Assembly: GCF_024758505.1 (NCBI RefSeq)
Contig: NZ_CP077970.1
Coordinates: forward strand, 2,976,001-3,040,000
Reading direction: 5' to 3'
Origin: Bradyrhizobium arachidis
GTDB taxonomy: Bacteria > Pseudomonadota > Alphaproteobacteria > Rhizobiales > Xanthobacteraceae
Length of the DNA stretch: 64,000 bases
The notes under the pieces were generated by a model. It saw only the letters and a program-made list of their open reading frames with translations. It searched no databases and was not told the DNA's origin. The position numbers and the translations under genes were made by a program. Below are positions 4,541 through 35,918 of the stretch, in pieces. Positions within the stretch are counted from its first letter, which is position 1, and every line of letters starts with the position of its first letter.

Positions 4541-4541
4541 C

Positions 4542-9910: not shown

Positions 9911-9912
9911 CC

Positions 9913-10560: not shown

Positions 10561-10566
10561 GCGACT

Positions 10567-11103: not shown

Positions 11104-11112
11104 GGTGTTTCC

Positions 11113-12866: not shown

Positions 12867-13304
12867 TGGGAGTCGCCTGATTGCACCTGGATGCCGGAAA
12901 GCGGGGGGCGCCTTGCGCGGTCAGAGTTTCCGAAAATCGATAGACCTTGTCAGGTGGGTGCAAGACGCACTCCGGGGACGGTCACCTGCAGGAACGTTCC
13001 ACGTCGGCAGAACTGGAGAGTTCCATGTCGGCAAATAAAGTGGTGCTTGCTGGCAACATCGGAAAGTTTTCTCTGGTGTCGCGGCGGTGCGGTAAGTGTC
13101 TCGCCTTGCAAGGCGATGGGATCAGGGATGATGATCTTGGTCCTACACACGCGGCGATGGAATCGTCTGCTGCGAGCCGAAGCCGGAGTTATGCACGCTG
13201 ACGTGCATTACTGAGGTAACGGAATTGTAGTGGGGCAGCCTGTACGCTCTACGATGTGGCAGGCCAAGGAGAGTTGATAGGCGACGCGGACGTACTTTGC
13301 GGGG
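12867..13304. other. Intergenic gap inside the pilus locus
   Basis: About 440 bp between the second tadE and the secretin gene. It holds an imperfect direct repeat, GTTCCACGTCGGCA (12996-13009) and GTTCCATGTCGGCA (13020-13033), 24 bp apart. A 58-codon open frame runs from ATG 13025 to 13201 with GGAGAG upstream and a CGKC motif, but its composition is not convincingly coding. The gap separates the secretin part from the motor part and may hold a second promoter. Confidence 0.4.
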
Positions 13305-13331
13305 ATGGTCGCGCGGCGAAGGGGAAGCAAG

Positions 13332-17061: not shown

Positions 17062-17764
17062 GGGTCCCGCGGCGGCTGCTGCGTCAGATCCATGCCGCCG
17101 AAATCAAACTCGCCTCGAGATTGCTACCGCGATTAGCGGTCAGCTGGGGACTTGAGTCAAGCGGTCCCCCGGTCCTCAGGATCCTGAGGCCGGCCCCTCC
17201 GGTCGTCGCGAATCCGATCGCGCACACACGATATCACTCCCTTTCGCACGAACTGCGGACGGCAACCCCTCCGGTCAAGGGCGTAAAGCGGCTCTCGCTC
17301 AGGACTCGCGATTGATGAGAGATCGTCGCTTTGGCTGGTGGGGAAAGGCAGTCGTGCTCCAGCGACTTGCACCTCCGACATTCTAGGAGTTCGCCCGAGA
17401 GGGCTGGGAGCCGGCCACTTCAACAAAAAGGGAAAATCCACCCCGTGCAGCAGGCTCGATCGACCGCGCGGCGCGTTCAGCAGGGCCGTTGTCACTGTAG
17501 GCGTGAACGGGCTCCCGAATGGCGAAACCCGCCACCCTGCTTCACCGTGGGGCCCGTCGCAACCTCCGGGTTAGCCCGGAGTTGACCGGTCTTGTCGGCC
17601 ATCCCATGGTCGATGAGAACTTAATCCTATCGCCGGCGCGGCCGCTCGTCAGCCCGGAGCTTTGACAATCGCTTCATCGGAGAGGCGAGCGTCTGTTTGG
17701 CGACTGGATTTCCCCCCATTCCATGTATCTCGCAGACCGCCCGCTCGTCGGGAAGGAGCCTTCG
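17062..17764. other. Long intergenic region with one hairpin
   Basis: About 700 bp without a frame of coding character. A perfect hairpin CTCCGGG-TTAG-CCCGGAG lies at 17564-17581 without a T-tract. I found no copy of the tandem AraC-type sites described elsewhere in this window. Confidence 0.4.
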
Positions 17765-18778
17765 ATGTTTGCCGAGCTCGACAGCGGCAAGGACAGTCAC
17801 GAGAGTTTGCTGAGCACCTTCAAGGTGTTCGTGCCCGACGTGAGGATCGAGCTGAATGGCCCACGCAGGGCGAATCAGTGGCGGGGCCAGTTCGCCATGG
17901 CCAATCGGCTCTCCTGGTGGCAACTGGAAACGGAGACCGAGTGGACCTGCTGGCCGGAGCGCGAGGAGGAGAGGTTTTGTCTCGTGTTCCCTGCCTCTGG
18001 CGGGTTTGGCGCGCGGATCCGAGGCAAGTCCTTGCAGGCCGATTCCAGCAGCGCCCTGGTGCTCGGCGTCAAGGACATTTCGAAGACGTGGGCGCATGCC
18101 ACCGACGATCGGCATGGCCGCATGTCGTTGAAGCTCAAGGTGGCGGACGTCAGGAGGACCCTCACCAGCATCTTCGAGGACGCCACGCTGGAGAACATCG
18201 AGCTCAATCCGCTGCTGGACCTCGACAGTCCCGCGGGGCAGACCCTTTGGTCGCTGGTCCAGGCCATCGCGGCGGCGATGAAGGATGAGTCGATCAGGTC
18301 GGCGAAGGCGACCGCGCTGCTCCGCGAGGCCATACCTCGTTTGGTCTTCAAGAATTTTCCGCACCGCTTCATAGAGCGCCTCGCCCGTCACGGAGCGGAC
18401 GCCTCGCCGCGCCAGATCAGGGCCGCCGTCGATTTCATGCGTGCGCATATGCATGAGCCGCTCACGCTCGCGGAGATCGCGGAAGCGGTCGGAATCAGCG
18501 AGCGTTCGCTGCAGCACGGCTTCAGGACGTTTCGGGGAACGACGCCGGTGGCGCATTTGCGCGATCTGCGCCTCCAGCAGGCGCATGCCGAGCTATCGCT
18601 GGCCGAGAACACGCTGCCGGTGAGCGAGGTGGCGCTGAAATGGGGCTTCACGCATATGGGGCGCTTTGCGGCCAAGTATCAGGCCGCGTACGGCCAGTCA
18701 CCTTCCGAGACCCGCAAGCGCGCGGGAAGCGCACATCTGAAAGTAACTGAGCGGGAAATCCAGTCTCCTTCTTCCTGA
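17765..18778 (+). CDS. AraC-family transcriptional regulator (paralogue 1)
   Basis: 337 residues. The N-terminal effector-binding domain (about 1-200) is followed by a C-terminal AraC double helix-turn-helix: IAEAVGISERSLQHGFRTF, then VSEVALKWGFTHMGRFAAKY. I chose ATG 17765 because AAGGAG lies about 8 bases upstream. Two paralogues lie at 19398 and 22243 on the other strand. The second recognition helix is nearly identical in all three (ALKWGFxHMGRFAAxY), so they probably read related sites; such sites occur six times between 18830 and 24547. Confidence 0.9.
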   Translation: MFAELDSGKDSHESLLSTFKVFVPDVRIELNGPRRANQWRGQFAMANRLSWWQLETETEWTCWPEREEERFCLVFPASGGFGARIRGKSLQADSSSALVLGVKDISKTWAHATDDRHGRMSLKLKVADVRRTLTSIFEDATLENIELNPLLDLDSPAGQTLWSLVQAIAAAMKDESIRSAKATALLREAIPRLVFKNFPHRFIERLARHGADASPRQIRAAVDFMRAHMHEPLTLAEIAEAVGISERSLQHGFRTFRGTTPVAHLRDLRLQQAHAELSLAENTLPVSEVALKWGFTHMGRFAAKYQAAYGQSPSETRKRAGSAHLKVTEREIQSPSS

Positions 18779-18829: not shown

Positions 18830-18893
18830 TATCCAGTTCGCGAAGGATCTGTCCGTATCCTGCAAGCAGCGCTTCGCGGGCAATGTTTGATTA
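18830..18893 (+). promoter_or_regulatory. Tandem AraC-type site A with promoter-like element
   Basis: Half-sites TATCCAGTTCGCGAA (from 18830) and TGTCCGTATCCTGCA (18850-18864) are in direct repeat, 20 bp apart. Exactly 16 bp after the second lies CAATGTTTGATTA (18881-18893), a variant of the element found after sites C and E. It is upstream of the small gene at 18978. Confidence 0.65.
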
Positions 18894-18977
18894 TCCTTTG
18901 CGGTTCTAACTCTTGGTGCGGCACCATTGTGCGATCGCGGCGATCAGCGATCTGACATGCGCGCGAGGGGGGCAATC

Positions 18978-19346
18978 GTGGGAACTGTCGTCAGATTTGA
19001 GAGGCAAACGGATGCGCTAGCGAAGCTGCGACAGCCGGACCTCGTGCTTGATATTCGGGCGAGGCTTGCGATCGATGCGGACCGAATCGAACAGGCGGCG
19101 TCCGCCTGCGAGATCGTCGTCGGTTGCATCGAAAGCCTGCAGCGCAGTCTTGCGACCCTCGATGGCTTGCAGCGCTCGCTTCTCGCGTGCGAAGACGGTC
19201 AGCCGATCGAATTGCACACGACGGCGGTCAAGTCGCAGCTCTCCTCGCAGCTCGAGAGCGTTGCGAGCATCTTGCGTACGCTGGGTGACGCCTCTGAGGA
19301 GGTTTCCCGGGTCGGCGCCGCCATGGAGCGTCAGGCGCTGACGTGA
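18978..19346 (+). CDS. Small helical protein, possible chemotaxis accessory
   Basis: 122 residues from GTG 18978, chosen because GAGGGGGG lies at 18965-18972. It has no recognised domain and is predicted to be almost all helix (ALAKLRQPDLVLDIRARLAI, CIESLQRSLATLDGLQRSLL, QLSSQLESVASILRTLGDAS). It has no membrane segment or signal. It carries tandem site A and the same promoter element as the HemAT-like receptor and the che operon, which supports both its reality and a role in the same regulon. Function unknown. Confidence 0.6.
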   Translation: MGTVVRFERQTDALAKLRQPDLVLDIRARLAIDADRIEQAASACEIVVGCIESLQRSLATLDGLQRSLLACEDGQPIELHTTAVKSQLSSQLESVASILRTLGDASEEVSRVGAAMERQALT

Positions 19347-19397
19347 TCCCCGCGCCGCATGCATCGTGGAACGATGGATTGATCTCGTATTGTGAAG

Positions 19398-20405
19398 CTA
19401 ATAGATGCCAAGGGCACGCCTGACGGTTTCGGACGGAGAGACGCCAAAAGCCGCACGATATTGCGCCGCAAAACGACCCATATGCGTGAAGCCCCATTTC
19501 AGTGCGACTTCATGGATCGGAAGGCGGTTTTCGGGACGCGCCAATTCCGTATGAACGGCTTCGAGCCTGATCTGTCGCAGATACATTGCAGGCGTTGTAT
19601 CGCGATATCTGCGAAACCCGAGCTGGAGGTATCTGTCGCTGATTCCGACGGCCTCCGCGATGTCGATCATCGTCAGCGAGCGATGCAGATTGGCGCGCAT
19701 GTATTCGATGGCACGATGAATGTGCCTAGGCGTAACATCGGCCGGACCTCGATCCAATTTGTCGATGAAACGATGCGGCACATTCTCGAAGACCAACCGC
19801 AGGGCAGCTTCCGTGAGCAGGGCCATCGCCTTCGGCGAACGCACCAGCAATTGCTGCTCATGCATGCCCGAGACGACCGTGCGCGACAGTTGAAGGAGAG
19901 TTCGTCCCGTGTTGGTCGACAGATCGATCGTTGGGGTCAAGTCCAGCTTCGTCAATGCCGCGTGGCCGAACATCGCCTTGAGCACGCCGGCGACGAGATT
20001 GGCATCGAACCGCAGCATGACGTTCGCATAGCTTCCGTCCATCGCCTTCATCTGATGACGCCGCAACATCGATAGCGGCGCAAGAGCGATGGTCGCGGGC
20101 GTTCGCCGCGCGCTTCGCGTGCCGACAGTCATGTCGGCAGAACCGGCGGTGAGAAATGCCATCACCAGGTCGTCGTCGAGCGATTCCGACGAATAGGACC
20201 AGTCAGCGGAATATCGCGTCCTCCAGACACTGACGCCTTGTCCTGCCGAGATATCAGATCGCCAGCGAAACGCTGCATCGGAATTTGGCGGCGAGACTTT
20301 GATCGAGAACAAGTGCGCGCCGAACGAGGCGAGCAGGTTCTCAAAGCCTGCTCCGGACAGGACGGGCGCCTCTTCGAATGTCCCTTGCAATATAGGTTCC
20401 GCCAT
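19398..20405 (-). CDS. AraC-family transcriptional regulator (paralogue 2)
   Basis: 335 residues with an N-terminal effector domain and a C-terminal AraC double helix-turn-helix (IAEAVGISDRYLQLGFRRY; ALKWGFTHMGRFAAQY). The frame can be extended to a TTG at 20501, but tandem site B lies at 20486-20525 and overlaps it. The first residues conserved with paralogue 3 begin near the ATG at 20405, so I use that start. It is divergent from the globin-coupled receptor gene at 20847. Site B in its upstream region suggests self-regulation. Confidence 0.85.
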   Translation of the reverse strand: MAEPILQGTFEEAPVLSGAGFENLLASFGAHLFSIKVSPPNSDAAFRWRSDISAGQGVSVWRTRYSADWSYSSESLDDDLVMAFLTAGSADMTVGTRSARRTPATIALAPLSMLRRHQMKAMDGSYANVMLRFDANLVAGVLKAMFGHAALTKLDLTPTIDLSTNTGRTLLQLSRTVVSGMHEQQLLVRSPKAMALLTEAALRLVFENVPHRFIDKLDRGPADVTPRHIHRAIEYMRANLHRSLTMIDIAEAVGISDRYLQLGFRRYRDTTPAMYLRQIRLEAVHTELARPENRLPIHEVALKWGFTHMGRFAAQYRAAFGVSPSETVRRALGIY

Positions 20406-20485
20406 ACCCCGTTTCGGCAATATAATTCCATCGCGCGGCGGGACCTTCGTTTCAACCGGCTTGCGAAGGCAAACCGGTGGGATCC

Positions 20486-20525
20486 TATCCAGTTTGCGCA
20501 AAAGCTGTCCGGATCGCGCAGGTTG
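20486..20525 (+). promoter_or_regulatory. Tandem AraC-type site B
   Basis: Half-sites TATCCAGTTTGCGCA (from 20486) and TGTCCGGATCGCGCA (20506-20520) are in direct repeat, 20 bp apart. They lie upstream of the leftward AraC paralogue 2 and 189 bp before the first half-site of pair C. No TTTGATT element follows. Confidence 0.65.
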
Positions 20526-20674
20526 CAGGATCCAATGTCCGGGTCATGGACCGAGCGGAGACGAGCGGTAGATCTCGCTCTGGTGTGGATGTTACGGTCT
20601 GTCGCTGCACGGGCGGGCCGACAAGGCACGCGATCGTGCCACGTGTTTCGCGAGCTCGCCGAAGAGGCGTTCGA

Positions 20675-20739
20675 CATCCAATTTCCGAACGATCAGTCCG
20701 TATCGCGCAGACAAGCCGCCATAGTTAAGATTTGATTTG
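20675..20739 (+). promoter_or_regulatory. Tandem AraC-type site C with promoter-like element
   Basis: Half-sites CATCCAATTTCCGAA (from 20675) and AGTCCGTATCGCGCA (20695-20709), 20 bp apart. After exactly 16 bp comes TAAGATTTGATTTG (20726-20739). If TAAGAT is the -10 box, the second half-site overlaps the -35 position, as in class II AraC activation. It lies about 110 bp upstream of the receptor gene at 20847. Confidence 0.7.
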
Positions 20740-20846
20740 TTCTCGCCGCGTCTACTTCCCCGGCGCTTGTTCGCGCAGATGTATCCGTGTTCGCGGCTGT
20801 CTGCGCCTTGTCGGCGCGAGGACGTCGAATACTTCGTGGGGGAGCT

Positions 20847-22193
20847 ATGACCAACGACACGACCGACCGCGACGATCGCGAGAACCGCCTTCGCTTCTTG
20901 CGCATCGACCAGAAGACCGGGGCGGCGCTACGCGAATTCTGGCCGGTGGTCGAAAAAGCTCTGCCTGTCATCCTCGAGGGGTTCTACAAACATCTTGCGG
21001 GCAACCCGGCATTGGCGAAGCTGGTCGGCAATCAGATGAAACGCCTGCAAGGCGCCCAATCCGCGCACTGGGCGCGCATGTTCGACGGTCATTTCGACGG
21101 TGCCTACGTGCAGGGTGTTCGAACGATCGGCCTGGTGCACAGCAAGATCGGGTTGGAGCCGCGCTGGTACATCGGGGGCTACGCTTTCGTGTTGTCGCAC
21201 CTCACGGACCTCGCGATCGCCACCTATCGGTGGAACAGGGCCCGTTTGGGGGACGTCATCACTGCCGTGAATAGTGCCGTGATGCTCGATATGGACTTTG
21301 CGATTTCGGTCTATCAGGAGGCCCTGCTGGACGAGCGGGCCAAGCGCCAGAGGACGGTCGATGGCTTGATCGTCGACTTCGAACGGCAGGTGACCGTCGC
21401 ACTGGAAGCGCTGTCGACGTCTTCGATCGCGTTGAACGACACCGCTGGTACCATGGCGCGGACCGCGGAGGCGACGACGCAGCGGGCGAGCAACGTGGCA
21501 GCAGCCTCGGAGCTGGCTTCGACCAACGTGCAGTCCGTTGCCTCGGCCAGCGAAGAGATGGCCTCCTCCGTGACCGAAATCGGCCGGCAGGCCCACGAGT
21601 CGACGCGGATTTCGACAGAGGCCGTCGAACTCTCGCGGAGTGCCGATCAGCGTATTCACTCGCTGTCCGAGGCCGCGTCGAAGATCGGCACCGTCGTCGA
21701 ACTCATCAACACGATCGCCGGTCAAACCAACCTGTTGGCGCTGAATGCGACGATCGAGGCGGCCCGTGCCGGCGAGGCCGGAAGGGGCTTTGCCGTGGTG
21801 GCGTCCGAGGTCAAGACATTGGCGGAGCAAACCTCGAAAGCCACGAGCGAAATCGGGCAACAGGTCGCCGGGATACAGACGGCAACGCAAGAAGCTGTCA
21901 CGACGATTCGCGAGGTCAGCCATATCATTCACCGCATTTCTGAGATTGCTGCTGCAATCGCCGGCGCCGTGGAGGAGCAGGGCATGGCAACGCAGGAGAT
22001 CACGCGGAATGCGCAACAGGCGGCCAGAGGCACGGGCGACGTTTCCTCGAACATCGCCGGTGTGAGCCATGCCGCGGACGAGGCGGTGGCCGCATCGAGC
22101 CAGGTGCAGCTCGCTTCCTCCCAACTCGCCAAGCAGGGCGAAGAGCTGGGCACCGAGGTGCAGCGCTTCCTCAGGGGTATCCGTGCGGCGTGA
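20847..22193 (+). CDS. Globin-coupled methyl-accepting chemotaxis protein (HemAT-like)
   Basis: 448-residue soluble chemoreceptor without membrane segments. Residues 1 to about 165 are a protoglobin-type sensor: [18 protein letters not shown], then [19 protein letters not shown], in which His98 matches the proximal heme ligand of HemAT. The C-terminal signalling domain has the canonical hairpin tip ([36 protein letters not shown]). It should sense O2 or another heme ligand and signal to CheA. ATG 20847 follows GGGGGAG closely. Tandem site C drives it. Confidence 0.9.
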
Positions 22194-22242
22194 TCGCGCC
22201 GGGTTCCGCCCGCCTCGCTTCCAGTCGAGTTCACCCGCCTCG

Positions 22243-23322
22243 CTAGGGCTGCGGACGGAGGATGTGGGGTGCGCCGGCGCGCCTGGCTGTTTCCGAGGGG
22301 GTAACGCCGAAGGTCCGGCGATACTGGGCTGCGAAGCGTCCCATGTGAGCAAATCCCCACTTCAGGGCGACTTCGCTGACCGGCAATGTATTCCCGGGCG
22401 AAGACAACTCGCTGTGGACCGCGTCAAGCCTGACGCGCCGCAGATAGTACGCCGGCGACGTCTCGTAGTGCTTGCGGAAGCCGAGCTCCAGAGAGCGGCT
22501 GCTGATGCCGACCGCGGCCGCGATGTCGCCCATCGTCAGCGGCAGGTGAAGATTGGCCCGCATGTAGTCGATCGCCCGCTTGATCTGTTGTGGCGCAGTA
22601 GCGCCGCCTTGCTGCTGGAGCTTTGCAGAGAGACGGTGTGGCACCTCTTCAAGGATCAATCGGAGAGCGGCCTCCGTCAGCAACGCCATGGCCTTGGGTG
22701 AGCGCAGGAGCACTTGTTCGTCGCGCATGCCGTTCGCCAGTGCAGAGGCAATCGACTGCAACGTCTGTCCCAGGTGGGTCGAAAGATCGATAGCGGGCGT
22801 GAGATTGAGGCTCGTTAGTGGCGCCCCCTCGAACATGTCGACCAGCAGCCGGGCGACGGTGCCTGCCTCGAAGCGCATCGTCACACCGGTGAGACTTCCG
22901 TCGCGCACGAATACGGCCTGCCGCCTCAGGGTCGGCTGCGCGTAAACGGCCAGGCGCGATGAGGTCTGCTCAACCGTCCGCGAGCCGATCGCCAGCTCAG
23001 AGCCTCCGGTGCCGAGAAAGCACAGATTGAGGTTCTCCGTATCGTTGTCCGAACCGTAGGCCCAGCCGCTCGAATACGCCGCGCGGACCACGCTCACCCC
23101 CGGTCCCACTGCGAAGTCTGACTGCCACCGAAATCCAGCGCGAGGATTCGGCGGGGTAATCTTCAGTGGCAGCAGACGCGATCGGTAGTAGGCGAGGAGA
23201 TCTTCGAAATTCGAGCCTTGGACGACAGGAGTTTCGCGAAGTGGATCCTTTGGCAAGTCGTGACTCGTCGAAAAAGGTATCCCGGCGCGGAGATGCAAAC
23301 ACGAGCCTGATCGAAGGTTCAA
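22243..23322 (-). CDS. AraC-family transcriptional regulator (paralogue 3)
   Basis: Up to 359 residues. It has the same architecture as the two other paralogues, with helix-turn-helix units IAAAVGISSRSLELGFRKH and ALKWGFAHMGRFAAQY. The outermost start is TTG 23322; a TTG at 23256 (reading PKDPLRETPVV) matches the N-terminus of paralogue 2 better. It converges with the HemAT-like gene, 49 bp apart. Tandem site F lies just upstream (23359-23393). Confidence 0.85.
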   Translation of the reverse strand: MNLRSGSCLHLRAGIPFSTSHDLPKDPLRETPVVQGSNFEDLLAYYRSRLLPLKITPPNPRAGFRWQSDFAVGPGVSVVRAAYSSGWAYGSDNDTENLNLCFLGTGGSELAIGSRTVEQTSSRLAVYAQPTLRRQAVFVRDGSLTGVTMRFEAGTVARLLVDMFEGAPLTSLNLTPAIDLSTHLGQTLQSIASALANGMRDEQVLLRSPKAMALLTEAALRLILEEVPHRLSAKLQQQGGATAPQQIKRAIDYMRANLHLPLTMGDIAAAVGISSRSLELGFRKHYETSPAYYLRRVRLDAVHSELSSPGNTLPVSEVALKWGFAHMGRFAAQYRRTFGVTPSETARRAGAPHILRPQP

Positions 23323-23358
23323 GCCCTACAAAGGTTATCCCGTCATATCGTCTCACGA

Positions 23359-23393
23359 TATCCGTTTTCCGAATGACATGTCCACATCCCGCA
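23359..23393 (+). promoter_or_regulatory. Tandem AraC-type site F
   Basis: Half-sites TATCCGTTTTCCGAA (from 23359) and TGTCCACATCCCGCA (23379-23393), 20 bp apart, in the gap between parA and AraC paralogue 3 and upstream of the latter. No TTTGATT element follows. Confidence 0.6.
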
Positions 23394-23423
23394 CTGCGGC
23401 GCGCGTTCTGCGTGCCGCAGTGC
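23391..23423 (-). terminator. Strong hairpin after the parA-like gene
   Basis: Perfect 10-bp inverted repeat GCACTGCGGC (23391-23400) / GCCGCAGTGC (23414-23423), 27 bases beyond the parA stop codon in its reading direction. No T-tract follows, so it may be a processing or Rho-assisted end. It touches site F. Confidence 0.45.
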
Positions 23424-23449
23424 GGTGCGCCGCGAAGCTCCGTCCGAGG

Positions 23450-24187
23450 TCAGAGGATGAACGCGGGCTGTTCTGCTCGGATCGGCAGATGCAGTCCTGC
23501 AAAGGGGGAGGTCGCAACCACACCGGCCGACGCGTCGACGCCCAGCCGGGCCTCGATCCAATTCCACAGGCGACGGATCTCTTCGGTTGATTTGCTCGTC
23601 GGCGCGTATTCGCTGACCGCGAGCCCGGCGCTCAATGCATCCTGATGATCGTTGCGCATGACGATGAAAGGTCGCGCGAGCACCTCAATGAGGTCTATCG
23701 CTGCTTCGTCGGCAAGCGTCTCAGCGGCGTCGTCGATGCGGCGGCCGCGGCTTGGCACCTGGTTGAGCACGAATGCAAACGGCTTGCTCCAGGCCCGAAC
23801 AAGACTGAGCGTCGATGCCGTCGCTTCGATGTCGGCCGTGGTCGGTCGCGCCGGGATCAGGCACAGGTCGGCGTGGCGAATCGCCGCGGTCCTTGCCGAG
23901 CTGACGCCGCCGGCCGCATCGATGATGGTCAGCGTCACGCCGCTATCCCTGAGCGCACGCAGGCGCGGCTCGATGTCCTGGACGGTATCGATGGTCTCGA
24001 CAATTGGCTCCGCATCGACGCGGCGCTTGCGCCAGTTCGAGAGCGTTCCCTGCGGGTCGGCGTCGATCAGCCGAACGTTGTGTCCGGCCTTCTTCGCGGC
24101 CAACGCAAGGCTGATGGCGAGCGTGCTCTTGCCGCTGCCTCCTTTTTGGGTCGCCAGTACGATCGTGTGCATGGAGTGAAGTGCCAT
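23450..24187 (-). CDS. ParA/Soj-family partition ATPase
   Basis: About 245 residues. It has deviant Walker A TQKGGSGKSTLAISLALAA near residues 13-31, Walker A' (LIDADPQGTLSNWRKR) and Walker B (LTIIDAAGG). ATG 24187 has GGAAG upstream. There is no ParB and no parS-like palindrome beside it, and the nearest genes encode soluble chemoreceptors and Che proteins. In other bacteria orphan ParA proteins (PpfA, ParC) position such clusters, so this may do the same. The C-terminal tail of about 30 residues is not conserved ParA sequence. Confidence 0.85.
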   Translation of the reverse strand: MALHSMHTIVLATQKGGSGKSTLAISLALAAKKAGHNVRLIDADPQGTLSNWRKRRVDAEPIVETIDTVQDIEPRLRALRDSGVTLTIIDAAGGVSSARTAAIRHADLCLIPARPTTADIEATASTLSLVRAWSKPFAFVLNQVPSRGRRIDDAAETLADEAAIDLIEVLARPFIVMRNDHQDALSAGLAVSEYAPTSKSTEEIRRLWNWIEARLGVDASAGVVATSPFAGLHLPIRAEQPAFIL

Positions 24188-24347
24188 ATGTGTCTTCCAT
24201 TGATTGGAGAAGCGGGACGCAAGGAAAACGCAACTGCACTGAAGGCTGCTTCGTCGAAACGGCGAGCCCATTCCGTCATATCTGCAGATTCCGGGTTAAC
24301 AGTTCACTGAGTAAGCGCGGCTCCGGTCGCCAAACTCACCCGCGAGC

Positions 24348-24382
24348 TATCCGGATTGCGAACACAGCATCCGGATCGCGCA
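24348..24382 (+). promoter_or_regulatory. Tandem AraC-type site D
   Basis: Half-sites TATCCGGATTGCGAA (from 24348) and CATCCGGATCGCGCA (24368-24382), 20 bp apart, between the divergent parA-like gene and the che operon. It is exactly 160 bp upstream of pair E. No promoter element follows on this strand. Confidence 0.65.
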
Positions 24383-24507
24383 TTCAGCGCGAAGCATGTC
24401 ACGCGTGCGAGGGGATCGCGGAGCGAGAGCGGCCCTGAGTCGCGGATGGAGAAGGCGAGGATCGCGCGAATGCGAGCGCAAGCAGCCCCGCAAAAACACG
24501 GCCTCCG

Positions 24508-24571
24508 CATCCGCTTCCCGCAAATCCTATCCGGATCGCGCAAGTGGGGCGCGACAGGTAAGATTTGATTT
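24508..24571 (+). promoter_or_regulatory. Tandem AraC-type site E with che operon promoter
   Basis: Half-sites CATCCGCTTCCCGCA (from 24508) and TATCCGGATCGCGCA (24528-24542), 20 bp apart. After exactly 16 bp comes TAAGATTTGATTT (24559-24571), identical to the element after site C. It lies about 90 bp before the first gene of the che operon. Confidence 0.7.
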
Positions 24572-24661: not shown

Positions 24662-25018
24662 ATGAATATCTCGGCTGGGGGTTCGGAAGGCCGTGTGCGG
24701 TTGCAGGGGAGTCTCACCCTGCGCGACGCAAAGCAGGTGCAAGGATTGTTGCTGGACGCCATCAGCGCGTCCCGCGAAGTCGAAATCGATGTCAGCGATG
24801 TCAGCAGCATCGATGTCAGCATCATTCAGTTGATCGTGAGCGCGCGCAAGAGCGCCGAGCAACGCGGGCGCAAGCTGGCGCTTGCGACGGAATCGAACGG
24901 CGCATTCAGGGCAACGCTGGCAAAGGCGGGATTTCTCGGTGACGACGGCGCCTGCCGTCACGTCGACGAAGAATTTTGGACCGGCGGCGGGTTGCAGAAA
25001 ACGGGGATTGGAGCATGA
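24662..25018 (+). CDS. STAS-domain protein (anti-sigma-factor-antagonist type)
   Basis: 118 residues with a STAS fold: RVRLQGSLTLRDAKQVQGLL, then IDVSDVSSIDVSIIQLIVSA. The Ser in IDVS sits where SpoIIAA-type proteins are phosphorylated, so it could be a phospho-switch partner of a kinase or part of the chemotaxis output. It is the first gene of the che operon and overlaps cheY by ATGA. No anti-sigma kinase is encoded nearby. Confidence 0.8.
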   Translation: MNISAGGSEGRVRLQGSLTLRDAKQVQGLLLDAISASREVEIDVSDVSSIDVSIIQLIVSARKSAEQRGRKLALATESNGAFRATLAKAGFLGDDGACRHVDEEFWTGGGLQKTGIGA

Positions 25019-25383
25019 GTAAGAGCGTTCTGGTGGTCGACGATTCCGCCTCGATTCGGCAGATGGTGACGTTGACGTTGTCGGGAGCGGGTTACGCCAC
25101 GCTCGAAGCCGTCGACGGCGAGGACGGCTACGCCAAGGCGACGGCCAATCCGATTCGCGCGGTGGTGACCGACCTCAACATGCCGCGGATGAACGGCATC
25201 GAGTTCATCCGCAAGTTTCGCGCGCATCCGTCCAGCACCGGCGTGCCGATCATCTTTCTCACGACGGAATCGGACGAGGACATGAAGCGGCAGGCGAAGG
25301 AAGCCGGCGCGACCGCCTGGATGGTGAAGCCGTTCAAGCAGGACCAGCTCCTGGCCGTCATCAAGAAGGTCGCCGGCGCATGA
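25015..25383 (+). CDS. cheY: Chemotaxis response regulator CheY
   Basis: 122-residue single receiver domain. Acidic pair D9/D10 (VVDDSASIRQ), phospho-acceptor D53 (VVTDLNMPRMNG), Thr83 and Lys105 (MVKPF) are all present. No output domain, so it acts by binding the flagellar switch, or as a phosphate sink. ATG 25015 overlaps the STAS stop, and its own stop overlaps cheA. Confidence 0.93.
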   Translation: MSKSVLVVDDSASIRQMVTLTLSGAGYATLEAVDGEDGYAKATANPIRAVVTDLNMPRMNGIEFIRKFRAHPSSTGVPIIFLTTESDEDMKRQAKEAGATAWMVKPFKQDQLLAVIKKVAGA

Positions 25384-27389
25384 CCGCGATGGATCCTCGG
25401 GACGTCTTCCATCAGGAAGCGCGCGAGCTTCTCGATCAGCTCGAGGAGGCGCTGCTCGATCTCGGCAACTCCTCCGACGATCGCGATCTCGTCGACTGCG
25501 CATTTCGGGCGCTGCACACCATCAAGGGCTCGGGCGCCATGTTCGGCTTCGACGAGGTGGCAGGCTTCGTCCACGAGTTCGAGACCGCGTTCGACCGCGT
25601 GCGCAAGGGCTCCGTGGCCATCAGCCCGCCGCTGGTCCAGGTGGCGCTCGCCGCGAAGGATCACATCGCGCGGTTGATCGCCGAGCCCGGCCGACACGTC
25701 GCAGACGGCGAGGCGGTCCTGAAGAGGCTGCGCGCAATCGTTTCGAACGACGAGGGCAGCGATCCCGGCGATACCTTCCCGCTCGCGGGTGGCCGGGTGG
25801 CCGCAGCCGATCCGTCACTGGTCCAGACCCCCGTTCAGACCTGGCGGGTCAAGTTTCGTCTGGCTGAGAACGCGCTCGTGCTCGGTGCCAACCCGCTTCT
25901 GCTGCTCGATGAGCTGCGCGAGCTCGGGCCCTGCGAGGTGCGCGTCAAGACCGATGCGGTTCCTCCGCTGGAGTCGACCGATCCGGAGGTCTGCTACCTC
26001 GACTGGGAGGTCGTGGTCACCACGAATCGCGATCGCCAGGCCATTGACGACGTATTCATCTTCATTGCCGACGGCATGGAGCTGTCGATCGAAACGGTGG
26101 CGGCGGATGCGGCGGATGCGCCGGCCGCAGACAAGGCTGCGACCGCCAAGGTCATCGAGATCGACAAGCCTCGCGACTCCGGTGGCGCGGGCGCAAAGGG
26201 CGGCACCTCGGTGCGCGTTGCCGCGGAGCGGCTCGATGAGCTGATGGACCGCGTGGGCGAGCTCGTCATCGCCCAGGCAAGGCTCTCTCAACTTGCCGTC
26301 GCCTCTGACGACGCCAATCTGAAGTCGGTTGCGGAGGAGATGGAACGTCTCGCCTCGGGCCTGCGCGACACCACCATGGGAATCCGCATGGTGCCGATCG
26401 GCTCGCTGTTCGGCCGCTTCCGTCGCCTCGTCCACGATCTCTCGCGCGACCTCGACAAGGAGGTCGACTTCGTGACCGCCGGCGAGGAGACCGAGCTCGA
26501 CAAGACGGTGATCGAGCGGCTTGCGGACCCCCTGGTCCACCTGATCCGCAATTCGATCGACCACGGGCTGGAGGTTCCCAGCCGCCGGATCGCCGCGGGC
26601 AAGGCCGCGCGCGGGCAGGTTCGCCTGTCCGCGGTGCACACCGGCTCGGAGGTGGCGATCTCGATCGTCGATGACGGTGCCGGTCTCAACGCGGACCGGA
26701 TCCGCGCCAAGGCCGAAGAGGCCGGGCTGATCGCACCCGATGCGAAGATTGCCGACCACGATCTGTTCCAGATGGTCTTCCATCCCGGGTTTTCGACCGC
26801 GAAGGAGATCACGGCGCTGTCCGGCCGAGGCGTCGGCATGGACGTCGTCAAGCGCACCATCGAGGGCTTGCGCGGCCGGATCGATCTTGGTTCGAGACCG
26901 GGTGGCGGGACGACGGTGACGCTCCGACTGCCGCTTACGCTTGCCATCATCGAGGGCATGCTGGTGCGGGTCGGCCGGGGCCGCTACTCGATCCCGCTGT
27001 CGGCGGTGGAAGAATGCGTGGAGCTGCCGAGAGACGCGGAAGCTGCCAACAGCGGCCGCAACTTCCTCAACATCCGTGGCCATCTGGTTCCGTTCCTTCG
27101 CCTGCGCGAATTGTTCAAGACCAAGGCCGCGATCGAGCCGCATCAGAAGGTGGTGATCGTGTCGGCCGGCGAATCCCGGGTGGGGCTGGTGGTCGACCAG
27201 GTCATCGGCAATAGCCAGACCGTGATCAAGTCGCTGTCCAAGCTTCACGCCGATGTCGAAACCTTCTCAGGCGCGACCATCCTCGGAGACGGTACGGTGG
27301 CCTTGATTCTCGACGTTGCCCATCTCGTGAACTTCGGCCAGGAGTTCGAGAACCGCCTGCGCGATGAACGGATCGGGAGGGCGGCATGA
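25380..27389 (+). CDS. cheA: Chemotaxis histidine kinase CheA
   Basis: 669 residues with the standard order: HPt domain with phospho-His46 (FRALHTIKGSGAMFG), a linker/P2-like region to about 270, dimerisation helices (LDELMDRVGELVIAQARLSQ), HATPase with N-box VHLIRNSIDHGLE, G1 VDDGAGLN and G2 GRGVGMDVVKR, and a C-terminal CheW-like domain (GMLVRVGRGRYSIPLSAVEE). All catalytic motifs are intact. It receives input from the receptors here through the two CheW proteins. Confidence 0.95.
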   Translation: MTAMDPRDVFHQEARELLDQLEEALLDLGNSSDDRDLVDCAFRALHTIKGSGAMFGFDEVAGFVHEFETAFDRVRKGSVAISPPLVQVALAAKDHIARLIAEPGRHVADGEAVLKRLRAIVSNDEGSDPGDTFPLAGGRVAAADPSLVQTPVQTWRVKFRLAENALVLGANPLLLLDELRELGPCEVRVKTDAVPPLESTDPEVCYLDWEVVVTTNRDRQAIDDVFIFIADGMELSIETVAADAADAPAADKAATAKVIEIDKPRDSGGAGAKGGTSVRVAAERLDELMDRVGELVIAQARLSQLAVASDDANLKSVAEEMERLASGLRDTTMGIRMVPIGSLFGRFRRLVHDLSRDLDKEVDFVTAGEETELDKTVIERLADPLVHLIRNSIDHGLEVPSRRIAAGKAARGQVRLSAVHTGSEVAISIVDDGAGLNADRIRAKAEEAGLIAPDAKIADHDLFQMVFHPGFSTAKEITALSGRGVGMDVVKRTIEGLRGRIDLGSRPGGGTTVTLRLPLTLAIIEGMLVRVGRGRYSIPLSAVEECVELPRDAEAANSGRNFLNIRGHLVPFLRLRELFKTKAAIEPHQKVVIVSAGESRVGLVVDQVIGNSQTVIKSLSKLHADVETFSGATILGDGTVALILDVAHLVNFGQEFENRLRDERIGRAA

Positions 27390-27886
27390 ACATAGGTATC
27401 CAGTCCAATCATGCCGATCGCGCGATGACGGCGTTGACACTGCGGCTGCAGGACGAGGTGTTCGCGATCGACGCCGAGAGCGTGCGCGAGATCCTCGATG
27501 TGGTGCCGATCTCGGAGGTGCCGAACGCCAAGGCGTTCGTCGGCGGGTTGATCAACGTGCGCGGGCGCATCGTTCCGCTCGCTGATCTGCGTCTGTTGTT
27601 CGGCATGGACCGTCCGCCGCCGGACGTGAACACCAGAATCGTCGTGATCGAGGTCGATCTCGACGGCGAGCCGACGATCGTCGCGATTCTTGCCGACCGG
27701 GTGCTCGACGTGACCGAGATCGAAGCTGCCACGATCGAGGAGGCGCCGAAGATCGGCATGCGGTGGCGGCCCGAATATGTCCGCGGCATCGGAAAGCGCG
27801 GCGACGAGTTCATCATCATCCCCGAGATGGGGAGAATTTTCGCTACGGGGGACGCTGGGACGTCCGTTTCTCAGGAAGGGGTTTGA
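27386..27886 (+). CDS. cheW: Chemotaxis coupling protein CheW (copy 1)
   Basis: 166-residue CheW domain ([60 protein letters not shown]). It couples receptors to CheA. ATGA overlap with cheA; the transmembrane receptor gene starts two bases after its stop codon. Confidence 0.93.
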
Positions 27887-27888
27887 CT

Positions 27889-30015
27889 ATGAGGCTTACA
27901 CTTAAGGCGAAGCTGGGTGTGACGTTTGCGACAATCGTCGTTCTCTCCGGCGTCAGCATGTTCGTGGCGATTCAGAATCTGAACAGCCTGGACATCGAGC
28001 TGAACAAGATCATTGAGGGAAATGTTCAGCGCATTGAAATCGCCAATGACATGAGCGGCGCCGTGTACCGCATTGCGCGCGACGAAAAAAACCACATCCT
28101 TGCCACCGACGATGCCAGGATGAAGAAGCTCTCGGAGTCGATGAAGGCTGACGGCGAAACCGTGCGCCAGGACATCCAGAAGCTTCGCTCACTATCGTCT
28201 GAGGAAGGTAAGCGCAAGGTCGATACCGTTGCGGCCGCGTGGGACGTGTTCTGGGCGCGGCACACTGAGATCGAAAAATTCTCCGAGATGAATTCGGGCT
28301 CGGTGGCCTTCGACCGGGTCGTGAAGGCCGGGAAGAGTTCCGAAGTTGCGCAGAACTCGCTGAAAGCCGTGCTTGACAAGATGGCTGCGACCGCCAGCGC
28401 AAGCGGTGACGCAAAAGACTTTCAGGCCTTCGCGATCATGAAGGACGTCGAGATTGCCACGTTGCAGGTATCCCGCGCCATTCGCAACGTCGTTCTCGCC
28501 ATGAGCGATCCGACGATGCAGCAGGACATCGAGAAGCAACTTGACGCCCGGATCACTGCGCTCCAGCGCCTGATCGATCAGGCATCGAACGTCGTCCCGG
28601 CGAGCGAGCAGGCGGCGTTCAAGTCCTACAAGGAGAACATCACGACGTGGCTGGCCCAGGTCGATGGCGCCCGCAAGGCCGCGCTGGAAAACGGTGTCTT
28701 TAAGGCGACGACGCTGGCCGATGGCCCTGGAGCCGAGGCTCTCCGCAGCATGCGGGAAGCGATCAACAAGGTCCTTGATCTCAACAAGGAGCAGATGCAG
28801 CAGGCCGCAAAGGGCGCCGACGATCTCTACTCGTTCAGCCGCAACCTGCTGATCGGATTGCTGGTCGGCATGACGATCATTGCGATCGCGGCCGCGACTT
28901 GGATCGTGCTCAACATCAGCCGCGCCATCGCCAGTGCGCTCCATCTGGCCAGGGCGGTTGCTGACGGCGACCTCAATGCGACCGCCTCGGTCAAGTCGAA
29001 CGACGAGATCAAGGACCTGATCGACGCCCTCAACGCCATGGTGTCGAAGCTGAAGGAGGTCGTCTCCGAGGTGATGACGGCGACGCGCAACGTCACGTCC
29101 GGCAGCCAGGAGATGTCCGCGGCCGCCGAACAGCTCTCGCAGGGAGCGACCGAGCAGGCCTCATCGACCGAGGAAGCATCCTCGTCGATGGAGGAGATGG
29201 CCGCGAACATCAAGCAAAATGCAGACAACGCGGTTCAGACCGAGCAGACCGCCCGTCAATCGGCTGAAGATGCAAACGCCAGCGGCGAGGCGGTCGGCAG
29301 AGCGGTGACCGCGATGCAGACGATTGCCGAGAAGATCCTGATCGTTCAGGAGATCGCGCGGCAAACCGACCTGCTCGCCCTCAACGCGGCGGTCGAAGCT
29401 GCCCGTGCCGGCGAACATGGCCGTGGCTTCGCTGTGGTGGCCTCGGAGGTGCGCAAGCTCGCCGAGCGCAGCCAGACGGCGGCGGCCGAAATCTCGACCC
29501 TGTCGACGGACACCGTGAAGGCCGCCGAACAGGCGGGCGAGATGCTCAAGAGGCTGGTGCCGGACATCCAGAAGACCGCAGGCCTCGTTGCGGAAATCTC
29601 TTCTGCGACCAACGAGCAGAACGCCGGCGCGAGCCAGATCAACACGGCGATCCAGCAGCTCGACAAGGTGACGCAGCAGAACACCTCGGCCGCGGAAGAA
29701 ATGTCCTCGACCGCCGAGGAACTCGCCGGCCAGGCCGAGCAGCTGCAGGCGACCATCAGCTACTTCCGCCTCGACGAACAGGCTGCGCGCTCCGAAGCGC
29801 CGGTGGTGCAGCGCCGGTCTGCTCCGGCCGCGGCGAACGTTGCCCAGAAGGCGCCTGCGAGGAACACGGTTGCCGGCATGCAAGAGCGGGTGGCAAATGC
29901 TGCGCCGGGTATCGTCAAGCGCAAGAGCAGGACGAGCGACAGCGGCTTCTCGCTCGACATGGGCGGCGGCGCCGACGAGCTCGATGCGGAATTCAAGCGA
30001 TCAGGCGCGGCGTGA
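27889..30015 (+). CDS. Transmembrane methyl-accepting chemotaxis protein
   Basis: 708 residues from ATG 27889 (AGGAAGG about 9 bases upstream). Membrane segment 1 ([20 protein letters not shown]) is followed by a long helical periplasmic sensor of the four-helix-bundle type (about 35-320), membrane segment 2 ([20 protein letters not shown]), HAMP and a signalling domain with a canonical tip ([20 protein letters not shown]). The C-terminal extension is Ala/Lys-rich. The ligand is unknown. It is the only membrane receptor in the operon; the two globin-coupled ones are soluble. Confidence 0.92.
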
Positions 30016-30031
30016 CCTGAACTTCGAAGCA

Positions 30032-30064
30032 AGACTGACGCGGACGGCTCGTCCGCGCCAGTCT
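30032..30064. other. Hairpin between mcp and cheW2
   Basis: Inverted repeat AGACTG-AC-GCGGACG / CGTCCGC-GC-CAGTCT with a 3-base loop: 6 plus 8 base pairs around one mismatch. It lies in the 139-bp gap that divides the che operon. There is no T-tract. It may be an mRNA stability or processing element. Confidence 0.45.
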
Positions 30065-30154
30065 CCCACTTCCGGATGAATGCAACGGTGCCGGCTGTCC
30101 GCGCATGGCACGGGCCGGTCGGCCTCGGCCGGGCGGCCTGAATGGAGGAATGTG

Positions 30155-30622
30155 ATGGCAGAAAGTGCACAATACGTCACGCTTGGCGTTGGCGACGAAC
30201 GCTTCGCCTTGCCGGTGGAGCGGGTGCGGGAGATCCTTCAGATGCAGCCGATTGCACGGATGCCCAACGCTCCGGCGTGCTTTCTCGGCATGATCGACGT
30301 GCGCGGCCAGGGGGTGCCGGTGGTCGATCTTCGATTGAAGCTAGGCCTCGAGAGGGGCGAGGATACCGAGACCACGCGCATCATCGTCCTGCAGGTCACC
30401 GTCGGAGGGCGCGAGCTCACGCTTGGACTCAAGACGGACCGGGTCTTCGAGGTCACGGAACTCGACGGAAATCATCTCGAGCCGCCGCCGGAGATCGGGA
30501 CGAGCTGGAGCTCCAATTGCATTACCGGAATCGGGCGGCGCAACGGTGCGTTCGTGACTGTGTTTGATCTGGGCAGCCTGCTCGCCGCTTCCGACGTTGC
30601 CGTCATGGAGCGGGCAGCCTGA
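30155..30622 (+). CDS. cheW: Chemotaxis coupling protein CheW (copy 2)
   Basis: 155 residues with a CheW domain (YVTLGVGDERFALPVERVRE, FLGMIDVRGQGVPVVDLRLK, CITGIGRRNGAFVTVFDLGS). ATG 30155 has GGAGGAA at 30145-30151. It may serve a different receptor set from copy 1, for example the soluble receptors. Confidence 0.92.
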   Translation: MAESAQYVTLGVGDERFALPVERVREILQMQPIARMPNAPACFLGMIDVRGQGVPVVDLRLKLGLERGEDTETTRIIVLQVTVGGRELTLGLKTDRVFEVTELDGNHLEPPPEIGTSWSSNCITGIGRRNGAFVTVFDLGSLLAASDVAVMERAA

Positions 30623-30716
30623 GTGCCGCAGCCCGTCGATATGTTGGTGAGAGACAAGCATGTGTGGGCTGCCGGATGGCCGTCCGAATGCGTAAGAAGT
30701 GTGAATTCGGTTGCCA

Positions 30717-31601
30717 ATGTCACAAGTCCTTCGTCGTATTGAGCCCGCGTATGAGCCGTCCCCGGCGGATCGCCTGACGGACAGGGAGTTCGCGCAAATC
30801 GCTCGTCTGGTTACCGACCACGTCGGAATCAAGTTGCCGCCCGCAAAGCGGATGATGGTCGAGGGACGGCTGCGCCGGCGCATGCGACTTCTCGGCCACA
30901 ACAGCCTCTCAGCCTACTGTGCGTATCTGTTCGATCAGGGGGGGCTCAGGGAGGAGTTCCCTTACCTCATCGATGCGGTGACCACGAACAAGACCGACTT
31001 CTTCCGCGAAGCGGAGCACTTTTCATGTCTCGAGCACGAGATCATGCCGAAGCTGCTGAAGCTGCGCAGGCCCGGCGAGCGGCCGACAATCAAGCTCTGG
31101 AGCGCGGCGAGCTCGACGGGAGCTGAAGCCTATACGATGGCGATGGTCATGGCCGATATCGCCGAGCGGAGCAATGGACTCAATTACGAGATTCTGGGCA
31201 CGGACATTTCGACCGAGGTGCTCGTCCAGGCGAAACTCGCGATCTATCCGAAGGACATGATTGCACCGGTGCCCCCGTCGATGCGCGATCGCTACGTCAT
31301 GTTTGGCAGCGCATCGTCGCGCCAGGGAGAGGTTCGCATCGTGCCCGAACTGCGGCGCAAGGTGCGGTTCGCCCGTCTCAACCTGATGGACGAGCGCTAC
31401 CCGTTCGATTGCGAAATGGATGTGATTTTCGTGCGCAACGTCCTCATCTATTTCGACAAGCCTACGCAGGAAGCGGTCGCGGGCCGTCTGGCCAGCCACC
31501 TGCGACCCGGCGGCTTCCTGATCTTCGGTCACTCGGAATCGGTGATCGGCTCGAGCCTGCCGCTGCGCCAGTGTGCGCCTGCGGTGTTCCAGCGCGTCTG
31601 A
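30717..31601 (+). CDS. cheR: Chemoreceptor methyltransferase CheR
   Basis: About 294 residues. An N-terminal helical domain ([20 protein letters not shown]) is followed by the SAM-binding methyltransferase domain ([18 protein letters not shown], then [15 protein letters not shown] and [13 protein letters not shown]). The usual GEEPYS after the first motif is GAEAYT here, a mild deviation. It methylates receptor glutamates. ATG 30717 is chosen over a TTG at 30711. cheB follows after 7 bases. Confidence 0.92.
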
Positions 31602-31608
31602 GGCGACC

Positions 31609-32742
31609 ATGGGCAGCACGCAGACCAACACAACAGATCGCTCTTTCGCAAAACGAAAAATTCGCGTCCTGGTCGTCGACGATTCCGCCTCCGTCCGGAA
31701 GGCGCTCTGTGACATCATCGCGAGCGACGCCGATCTGGAAGTCATGGCGACGGCGTCGGATCCCTATATTGCCGCCGAACGCATCCGGCAGGAGATTCCC
31801 GATGTCATCCTGCTGGACATCGAGATGCCGCGGATGGATGGGCTGACGTTCATGCGCAAGATCATGGCGCAGCGGCCGATACCGGTGGTGATCTGCTCTT
31901 CGCTGACCGAGGAAGGCTCGGAGACGACCATCAAGGCCCTCGAGGCCGGAGCGGTGGACGTCGTGTCGAAGCCGCGAATGAATACTGCGGAGTTCCTGCA
32001 GGAATCGCGCATGCGAATCTGCGATGTGCTCCGCGCTGCGGCACATTCGCGTCTGTCGTCTCGGGCTCGAGCCGTGGTGCCCGTTCGGGTCGAGGCCAGG
32101 CACACGGCCGACGTCATCCTTCCTCCCGTCATCCCGGGGCGCGCGACGGCGCCGCTGACCGACCCGATTATCTGTATCGGCGCGTCGACCGGAGGCACCG
32201 AAGCCCTGCGTGACATCCTCGTTGCCCTTCCGGCGGCGACGCCGGGAATCGTCATCGTGCAGCACATGCCGGAAAAGTTCACGGCAGCGTTCGCCAGGCG
32301 GTTGGACTCGTTGTGTGCGATGTCGATCAGGGAAGCTGCCGAAGGGGATGCCGTCCTGCCGGGTACGGTGCTGATCGCACCGGGCAACCATCACATGTTG
32401 CTGGAGCGCGCCGGTCGCCAATATCGTGTGGCGATCAAGGACGGGCCTCCGGTGTCGCGCCACCGACCGTCCGTCGATGTGTTATTCCGCTCCGCGGCCC
32501 AGGCGGCCGGCTCGAACGCCGTCGGCGTCATCCTCACCGGCATGGGAGACGATGGGGCTCGTGGATTGCTCGAGATGAAAGCGGCCGGCGCGAGGACGAT
32601 CGCGCAGGACGAAGAAAGCTGCATTGTGTTCGGGATGCCGAAGGAGGCGATCCAGCGCGGTGCCGCCAACAAGGTCCTTCCGCTTGATCGCATCGCTCAC
32701 GAGATGGTTCACGAAGCGCGCCGCGGAAGGGGAGCGGCGTGA
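31609..32742 (+). CDS. cheB: Chemoreceptor methylesterase/deamidase CheB
   Basis: 377 residues. The receiver domain has D70 ([13 protein letters not shown]), followed by a linker and a methylesterase domain with catalytic Ser193 ([13 protein letters not shown]), His in VQHMPEKFT and Asp in [14 protein letters not shown] 31609 follows GAGGCGACC. Together with CheR it gives adaptation for the receptors in this region. The end overlaps the next gene by one base (TGATG). Confidence 0.94.
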
Positions 32743-34538: not shown

Positions 34539-34571
34539 TGGCGCTCCGGCGAGAATGAACGGGAAACGAGA

Positions 34572-35918
34572 ATGATACAGAATGAGACCAGGCAACGGCT
34601 CGCATTCAGTCAGATCGATGAGCGGGCCCTGGCGGACCTGCGGCAGTCGAAGGACCTGATCCTGCGGCATCTGCGGGCGCAGCTCGACATATGCTACGAT
34701 CATTACGCCGGCTTCGAGCGGACCTCCCATCTGGTCAAGAGCCGCGATCAAATCACGGATACCAAGGCGATGTACGCCGAGCACTGGGACCTCATGCTCG
34801 ACGGGACGTTCGATGAGGCCTACGAAGCCTCGGCCACCCGGATCGGCGAGTTGATCTATGCGAGGGTCGGCTTCGAACTGTGCTGGTATATCGCCGGCTA
34901 CGGCCTGGTGCTCTCGGAGACATTGCAAGCCCTGGCTGACGGCCCGTCGGGAGTATTCGACCGGCGTGCCAGGCAGAAGAAGGCGGATCTCCAGAGGGCA
35001 ATCGTCAAGGCCGTGACGTTCGACATGAGCATGGTCATTTCCGGCTACATGGAGGCACGCCGACGCGGGCGCGGCGAGGCGTTGCAGCGACTGGCCGACG
35101 ATTTCGACGAGGCAATCGGCGGGACTGCGACCATCGTGTCATCATCGGCGAGTGAGCTGGAAGCGTCGGCCTCATCGCTGACGGCGACGGCCGGCGACAC
35201 CCAGCGTCGGTCGGGAGAGGTGGCTTCAACGTTCGAACATGTCTCGGAGAGCGTCCAGGCGGTTGCTGCAGCGGCCGAGCAGCTGGCGAGCTCCGTGGAG
35301 GAGATCGGACGACAAGTGCATGCGGCGAGCAAGATTGCGACCGCGGCTGTCGATCACGCATCGAAGACCGATGCGCGTATCAACGAACTGTCCCAGGCGG
35401 CAGAGCGGGTTGGCGACGTGGTCAGGCTGATCACCTCGATCGCCGAGCGCACCAACCTGCTGGCGCTCAATGCAACGATCGAGGCTGCGAAAGCAGGCGA
35501 GGCCGGACGAGGCTTCGCCATCGTCGCCTCCGAGGTGAAGGCGCTGGCGGCTCAGACGTCGAAGGCGACAGAGGAGGTCGGCGTACAGATCGTTGCAATG
35601 CAGGCCGCGACCAATGATTCGATTGCGGCGCTCAAGGAGATTGGTGCGACGATCGGCAACATCTCGGAGATTTCGACGGCGATCGCGGCTGCGGTCGAGG
35701 AGCAGGGGGCGGCGACCCGGGAAATATCGCGCAACGTGCATCAGGCTGCGCAGGGTACCCAGGAGGTGGCCGCAAACTTTGTCGATGTCAACAACGGTGC
35801 AGCCGAGGTCGAGGCCGCGACCGCCCAGTTGCTGTCATCCGCGCAGGCGCTCGCGGGAGAAGGTGGCCATCTGGAGGGTGAGGTGCAGGGCTTCCTGTCG
35901 AGGATACGTGCGGCGTAA
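34572..35918 (+). CDS. Globin-coupled chemoreceptor lacking the proximal histidine
   Basis: 448 residues, soluble, with the same architecture as the receptor at 20847. Its sensor aligns well ([22 protein letters not shown] region), but Tyr96 stands where the heme-ligating His is in HemAT. It may bind heme differently or not at all. The signalling domain is canonical ([36 protein letters not shown]). It starts 33 bp after the preceding gene and probably ends the che operon. Confidence 0.88.

Follow-up and report, generated by a model that had tools for sequence, protein, structure and literature searches.

The genome of Bradyrhizobium arachidis (assembly GCF_024758505.1, contig NZ_CP077970.1) contains, within a stretch of 64,000 nucleotides (nt) from 2,976,001 to 3,040,000 of the + strand (hereafter the window, to whose own numbering the positions below refer), a chemotaxis gene cluster with globin-type receptors, in the gaps of which lie six pairs of directly repeated half-sites. 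We consider it probable that dimers of XylS/AndR-type AraC proteins bind these pairs as their operators, activating three promoters in a class I manner and exerting feedback at the other genes. The pairs would most likely be read by the three AraC proteins encoded in the cluster (AraC1, AraC2 and AraC3), so that an accessory chemosensory system equipped with globin receptors would have a switch of its own, closed and local. The sites, their spacing, confinement and conservation, the distance to a TTTGATT element and the likeness to known boxes were all computed, and from them we infer that the pairs are bound, that promoters are activated in a class I geometry and that there is feedback.

A preliminary description of this DNA had reported six pairs with a half-site spacing of exactly 20 base pairs (bp) and no such pair elsewhere in the window, and both statements were reproduced by our scans. 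With a loose half-site pattern of eight informative bases (RTCC-N6-YGMA), the + strand of the window gave 20 matches, 12 of which make up six pairs at exactly 20 bp, all of them in the cluster and each upstream of a gene. The other spacings between 6 and 60 gave no loose half-site pair on this strand; the − strand gave 18 matches with one pair, at 23 bp, and none of 60 first-order Markov sequences of window length had a pair at 20 bp. In the whole genome (9,429,272 bases) the full pair pattern had six exact matches, every one of them a + strand site of the cluster, none at one or two mismatches, and five at three mismatches versus one for the reversed-pattern control; at the level of sequence, the comparison with random positions, by which the preliminary description could have been overturned, thus came out in its favour. 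In the family sample of 296 genomes, two pair matches at ≤1 mismatch were found outside the own genome versus one for the control. As for the genes behind the pairs, the TTG start proposed for AraC2 by the open reading frame (ORF) caller (20501) would overlap pair 2, the likely start being the ATG at 20405, and pair 4 lies upstream of every candidate start of AraC3. Judged by these scans, the six pairs are a non-random, cluster-confined set of predicted operators of AraC type, that is, a real, local putative regulon.

The pairs also recur in relatives, as the preliminary description had proposed to examine. All six were found in B. liaoningense SZCCT0420 (loci L012/L025; taken to be genome G007 of the genus sample) and, between the same genes and with one pair weaker, in B. 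manausense SZCCT0344 (locus L026). In the genus sample, 13 of the 146 genomes had a pair match at ≤1 mismatch: six matches each in the own genome and G007, two in one genome and one in each of ten genomes. In an alignment of the intergenic gaps of the three cluster genomes (half-site core defined as RTCC plus CGMA, AraC3 start taken near 23259), 92 of the 96 core columns were identical, as were 58/72 columns of the six bases between the cores, 18/30 columns of the 5-bp spacers and 798/1064 of the remaining gap columns. Random placement (20,000 draws) reached the observed core conservation in a fraction of 5e-5, and in a fraction of 0.001 when whole half-sites were taken instead of cores. The AraC genes being paralogous, their upstream regions could share ancestry, and the pairs might accordingly be functionless remnants of duplicated promoter pieces; this we find scarcely credible, as the core bases are kept while spacers and flanks drift, and AraC1 and AraC2/AraC3, which belong to old, different clades, retain the same code. 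A DNA loop joining two pairs that share a gap was also considered and rejected, as a fixed helical phase is unsupported for the AraC2–HemAT gap, where the pair-to-pair distances in the three genomes are 189, 185 and 177 bp (160, 163 and 161 bp in the ParA–che gap).

Features of the cluster and its putative regulatory sites (positions in the window; MCP, methyl-accepting chemotaxis protein)
Feature	Positions	Strand	Remarks	Basis
AraC1	17723..18778	+	HTH_18 + AraC_binding_2; start ATG 17723 or 17765	Pfam, tree
Operator pair 1	18830..18864	+	faces small protein	pattern search; kept in L025 and L026
TTTGATT	18886..18892	+	21 nt past pair 1; candidate −35 region, small-protein promoter	
Small helical protein, 129 residues	18957..19346	+	no Pfam family	
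AraC2, 335 residues	19398..20405	−		Pfam
Operator pair 2	20486..20520	+	upstream of AraC2; without TTTGATT at 21 nt	
Operator pair 3	20675..20709	+	faces HemAT	
TTTGATT	20731..20737	+	21 nt past pair 3	
HemAT-like soluble protoglobin-MCP, 448 residues	20847..22193	+		Pfam
AraC3	22243..23322	−	start TTG 23322, 23298 or 23256	Pfam
Operator pair 4	23359..23393	+	upstream of AraC3; without TTTGATT at 21 nt	
ParA-type ATPase	23450..24187	−	ATG 24187; longer ORF from 24271	Pfam
Operator pair 5	24348..24382	+	ParA side of ParA–che gap; without TTTGATT at 21 nt	
Operator pair 6	24508..24542	+	faces che operon	
TTTGATT	24564..24570	+	21 nt past pair 6	
che operon: STAS, CheY, CheA, CheW, MCP, CheW, CheR, CheB, MCP-like, second protoglobin-MCP	24662..35918	+		Pfam

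The motif is not new: by its letters and layout it appears close to the known XylS/CphR box, and what is new is its apparent use here. On the bottom strand each half-site reads TGCR or TTCG, six further bases and GGAY, and would represent the footprint of one monomer, with box B (GGAY) contacted by the second helix-turn-helix (HTH) and box A (TGCR/TTCG) by the first; two such half-sites 20 bp apart would present about the same face of the DNA. The layout A-N6-B at 20 bp is found in all six pairs. A layout of box A and box B has been described for XylS (PMC5481539; this and the articles cited below are drawn on in excerpts), and direct repeats of box A-N6-box B are common to the cluster and to the Pm promoter, which in the pWW0 sequence has TGCAAGAAGCGGATA and TGCAAAAAATGGCTA 21 bp apart, in contrast to 20 bp in the cluster. 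The second recognition helix is also nearly identical, ALDYGFLHLGRFAENYRSAFG in XylS and ALKWGFTHMGRFAAQYRAAFG in AraC2. Further differences from Pm are box A, which is TGCA there and mostly TGCG or TTCG here, the opposite polarity of the boxes at the three forward promoters of the cluster, and the target, catabolism as opposed to chemotaxis. A spacing of 20 bp is also found with CphR, an AraC/XylS-type regulator of cphA2A1 in Rhodococcus, with two 15-bp TGCA-N6-GGNTA-like repeats at −35 to −49 and −55 to −69, i.e. 20 bp apart, in which box A is likewise CGCG or TGCG (PMC6205950); the CphR boxes, however, extend to −35 in XylS polarity, and that system has a single regulator and a single catabolic target (PMC6205950).

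A fixed promoter geometry, which goes beyond the preliminary description, was found at three of the six pairs. The + strand of the window has three copies of TTTGATT, each 21 nt downstream of a forward pair, and the − strand has one (17102); CTA, the −10 candidate, follows 13–14 nt beyond each of the three. Pair and TTTGATT also stand 21 nt apart in five of the six cases in the other two cluster genomes. A search of the whole genome for TAAGATTTGATTT-N13-CTA at ≤2 mismatches returned the HemAT and che matches only. The polarity of the boxes at these promoters is opposite to the XylS/CphR order, in which A precedes B towards the promoter. With TTGATT as −35, the half-site centres would fall at about −65 and −85; for the reverse boxes of MarA class I sites, −56 to −85 is given (PMC12052159). 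At the class I sites of MarA, SoxS, Rob and RamA the AraC-family box is likewise reversed and lies upstream of −35 (PMC12052159, PMC8811837), with the difference that MarA sits as a monomer on one box and the boxes of the cluster are paired. Because three pairs stand at a fixed distance to a candidate promoter, we read these three promoters as probably activated; the small-protein, HemAT and che sites are strong candidates for activation, and the sequence suggests it as the best reading. A dimer bound there, 21 nt from the conserved TTTGATT and in a polarity opposite to that of XylS at Pm, would probably recruit RNA polymerase in the class I manner. The pairs before AraC2, AraC3 and ParA have the XylS/CphR polarity, pointing at the gene; a core promoter at a fixed distance from them was looked for and none was found. 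They would probably exert feedback on these genes, control of ParA, AraC2 and AraC3 by their pairs being putative.

All three candidate regulators have the C-terminal double HTH (PF12833; AraC1 77.0, AraC2 73.8 and AraC3 77.7 bits, cut-off 33.6). The AraC_binding_2 domain (PF14525, cut-off 27) is recognized in AraC1 (35.9 bits) and AraC2 (43.8 bits), AraC3 falling just below (25.9 bits; in comparisons this protein was cut at 23259). Among NCBIfam models, AndR (NF041686) scores highest with each of them (124.5, 117.9 and 109.6 bits), the equivalog cut-off of 350 not being reached, so that they are related to AndR and not members of it. They share the XylS-like second recognition helix. The preliminary description had called them three paralogues with near-identical second recognition helices; the family and the helix are indeed common, yet AraC1 belongs to a clade apart from AraC2/AraC3. 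In a tree built without XylS, AraC1 groups with the proteins of loci L043, L044, L045 and L130 (96/91) and of L042 (92/92), and AraC2 and AraC3 group with the clade of AraC2-like genes standing alone in other genomes (solo loci; 95/94; 8 of the 20 surveyed were included), AraC2 being perhaps nearer to this clade than to AraC3 (83/78). On this tree AraC1 and AraC2/AraC3 are apparently old, different clades, not three fresh copies. Could another regulator of the genome read the sites? There are 27 genome matches to AraC2 at E ≤0.001, three of them in the cluster; the best one outside it is only 29% identical, many others match in the DNA-binding domain only, and such pairs adjoin AraC genes in other genomes, so we regard a reader other than the three local proteins as highly improbable.

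The solo AraC2-like loci were surveyed at one per genome, leaving out L046 and loci with short or distant AraC matches, and all 20 have a 20-bp pair at ≤1 mismatch; in 12 of them TTTGATY (≤1 mismatch) follows 20–22 nt beyond the pair, and the next gene in that direction, in all nine loci viewed by eye, encodes a protein of 136–156 residues with a signal-peptide-like start. Among the 12 genus hits outside the two cluster genomes, ten adjoin an AraC2-like gene and two (L017, L023) do not. Since related pairs stand beside AraC genes of both clades in other loci, the putative operator code seems older than the cluster. In L017 (5955) and L023 (5905) the 20-bp pair lies downstream of a coding end with no AraC2-like gene nearby and may be a chance match. 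Many solo loci also have a second, weaker pair at 21 bp (TAGCCANAATCCGAA..CATCCRGAATGCGA), nearer to the gene of the small exported protein and about 40–200 bp past the 20-bp pair (L013, L015, L018–L020, L022, L024, L027, L028 and others). Near the solo gene in L033 there is an RcpC/CpaB gene, and a similar protein was seen by eye in L029 and L040. Four genes of the AraC1 clade (L130 7898, L043 9881, L044 9881, L045 9892) have a box pair in front at 19 bp. Pair spacing seems to be clade-specific, as far as these sequences indicate. Locus L042 of B. liaoningense has a mini-module (7881–11559) of a CHASE3-HAMP-MCP gene, an AraC1-like gene, a 20-bp pair and a relative of the small protein. The small-protein site of the cluster resembles the L042 site, whose AraC is in the AraC1 clade (92/92); assigning single sites to single AraC proteins, for example via this likeness, was judged too thin to claim. 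Outside the genus, an AraC gene precedes STAS-che genes in Ciceribacter lividus (L052), where a TATCC repeat at 20 bp picked by eye failed the pair test, which gave only three-mismatch pairs at 18 and 22 bp, so that this locus is not counted; on a Rhizobium leguminosarum plasmid (L131 6980–10739), where an MCP gene follows an AraC gene, no pair at ≤2 mismatches was found in the gaps tested.

Several facts weigh against the preferred explanation as a whole. Each of the 12 half-sites differs from TGCA-N6-GGNTA by one to three specified bases. At the che operon of L026 the pair-to-TTTGATT distance is 20 and not 21 nt, and the −10 candidate reads CAAG; at the small-protein promoter this candidate is TTATCT in L012 and TATCT, 3 bp nearer, in L026. 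Eight of the 20 solo loci are without the TTTGATY element, and no pair was found in L046 (B. neotropicale), whose AraC2-like match is split in two. Finally, TTTGATT at 21 nt is missing from the AraC2, AraC3 and ParA pairs, so the single control layer of the preliminary description is a strong candidate at the small-protein, HemAT and che sites with their fixed geometry, and one that includes ParA stays hypothetical. An alternative arrangement takes TAAGAT, 16 nt past the pair at HemAT and che, as the −10, the end of the second half-site overlapping the −35 and TTTGATT belonging to the start region, i.e. class II with an inverted box. TAAGAT does resemble a −10 hexamer and is so spaced that the second half-site would cover the −35, XylS and CphR boxes adjoin or overlap the −35 (PMC5481539, PMC6205950), and TAAGAT or a near form occurs in many solo loci; at the small-protein promoter, however, the hexamer is CAATGT, yet TTTGATT is kept, and the L042 site retains TGATT in place and not TAAGAT. 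We therefore hold the class II arrangement to be rather unlikely and keep class I activation with TTTGATT in the −35 region as the preferred reading.

The genes so equipped are those of a chemosensory system, and Pfam identified the protoglobin-MCP and che genes in agreement with the HemAT-like receptor and che operon named in the preliminary description. Three of the four receptors of the cluster are without a transmembrane peak, namely the HemAT-like one, in which it was looked for and none was found, and the proteins at 32739 and 34572; the latter, the second protoglobin-MCP (34572–35918), ends the che operon. The globin domain alone suggests oxygen as the possible signal. The small protein, with a match in 2 of 146 genus genomes, is predicted to form a two-helix hairpin (mean predicted local distance difference test score, pLDDT, 80.9), and its model had no match among PDB structures at E 0.001 or better. 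Elsewhere the genome has two more genes for CheA, with 39% identity over 400 residues. One of the protein alignments was made without P0001 and P0004, each of which is 99% identical to the protein of the window. A close relative of the STAS protein occurs in 2 of 146 genus genomes and a low-identity one in 66 more. In all 28 low-identity loci examined, which are those returned by the search, CheY and CheA follow STAS, and in 27 a CheY-like gene stands in front, at the position held by ParA in the cluster; none has a pair at 19–21 bp with ≤1 mismatch. Because no pair was found in these 28 other STAS-che loci, the pairs mark what is predicted to be an accessory version of the STAS-che cluster. 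Directly upstream of AraC1 lies a Tad/Flp pilus cluster (4034–15008) with genes for prepilin peptidase, RcpC/CpaB, a CpaE-like ATPase, T2SSE, two T2SSF, Tad and secretin, and directly after the che operon a GAF-PAS-GGDEF-EAL gene (36000–38951).

The nearest described systems share single features with the cluster. As with PpfA of the cytoplasmic chemoreceptor cluster of Rhodobacter sphaeroides (PMC3964821), a ParA-type ATPase is encoded together with che genes and soluble receptors (23450–24187); the receptors here are of globin type, the likeness is one of gene context, and the ATPase scores 140.6 bits with NCBIfam NF041546, under the cut-off of 180. In the che3 cluster (class F8) of Bradyrhizobium diazoefficiens USDA110, as in this operon, the standard set of genes is joined by a further cheW and three MCP genes (PMC8429497); the common STAS-che loci examined differ by the missing pair and, in 27 of 28, by the CheY-like gene in place of ParA. 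That an AraC-type regulator can act on a chemoreceptor gene is already known from HilD and McpC in Salmonella (PMC7806825), where the target is a single receptor gene and not an entire che cluster that brings its own regulators. No description of an AraC-controlled globin chemotaxis cluster of this type was found in the titles and abstract openings of the open-access papers listed.

A more far-reaching picture can be proposed tentatively, as a possibility on the doubtful side: an accessory chemosensory system that has globin receptors and a ParA of its own for partitioning the array would be expressed as a unit, governed in a closed circuit by three AraC proteins of sensor type that belong to two old clades, with one code unique in the 9.4-Mb genome and class I promoters bearing an inverted XylS-type dimer box at a fixed 21 nt. 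A cluster that had not been described can now be tested as a regulon, for which operators are defined and promoters and regulators proposed as candidates. If the proposal is true, inverted boxes of XylS type recur naturally here at one distance from the promoter, a useful case for asking how box polarity relates to class I or II activation in the AraC family. On the same condition, a whole accessory chemotaxis array would be switched by dedicated one-component sensors, and three sensors acting on one code would amount to a logic gate that governs the building of the entire array.

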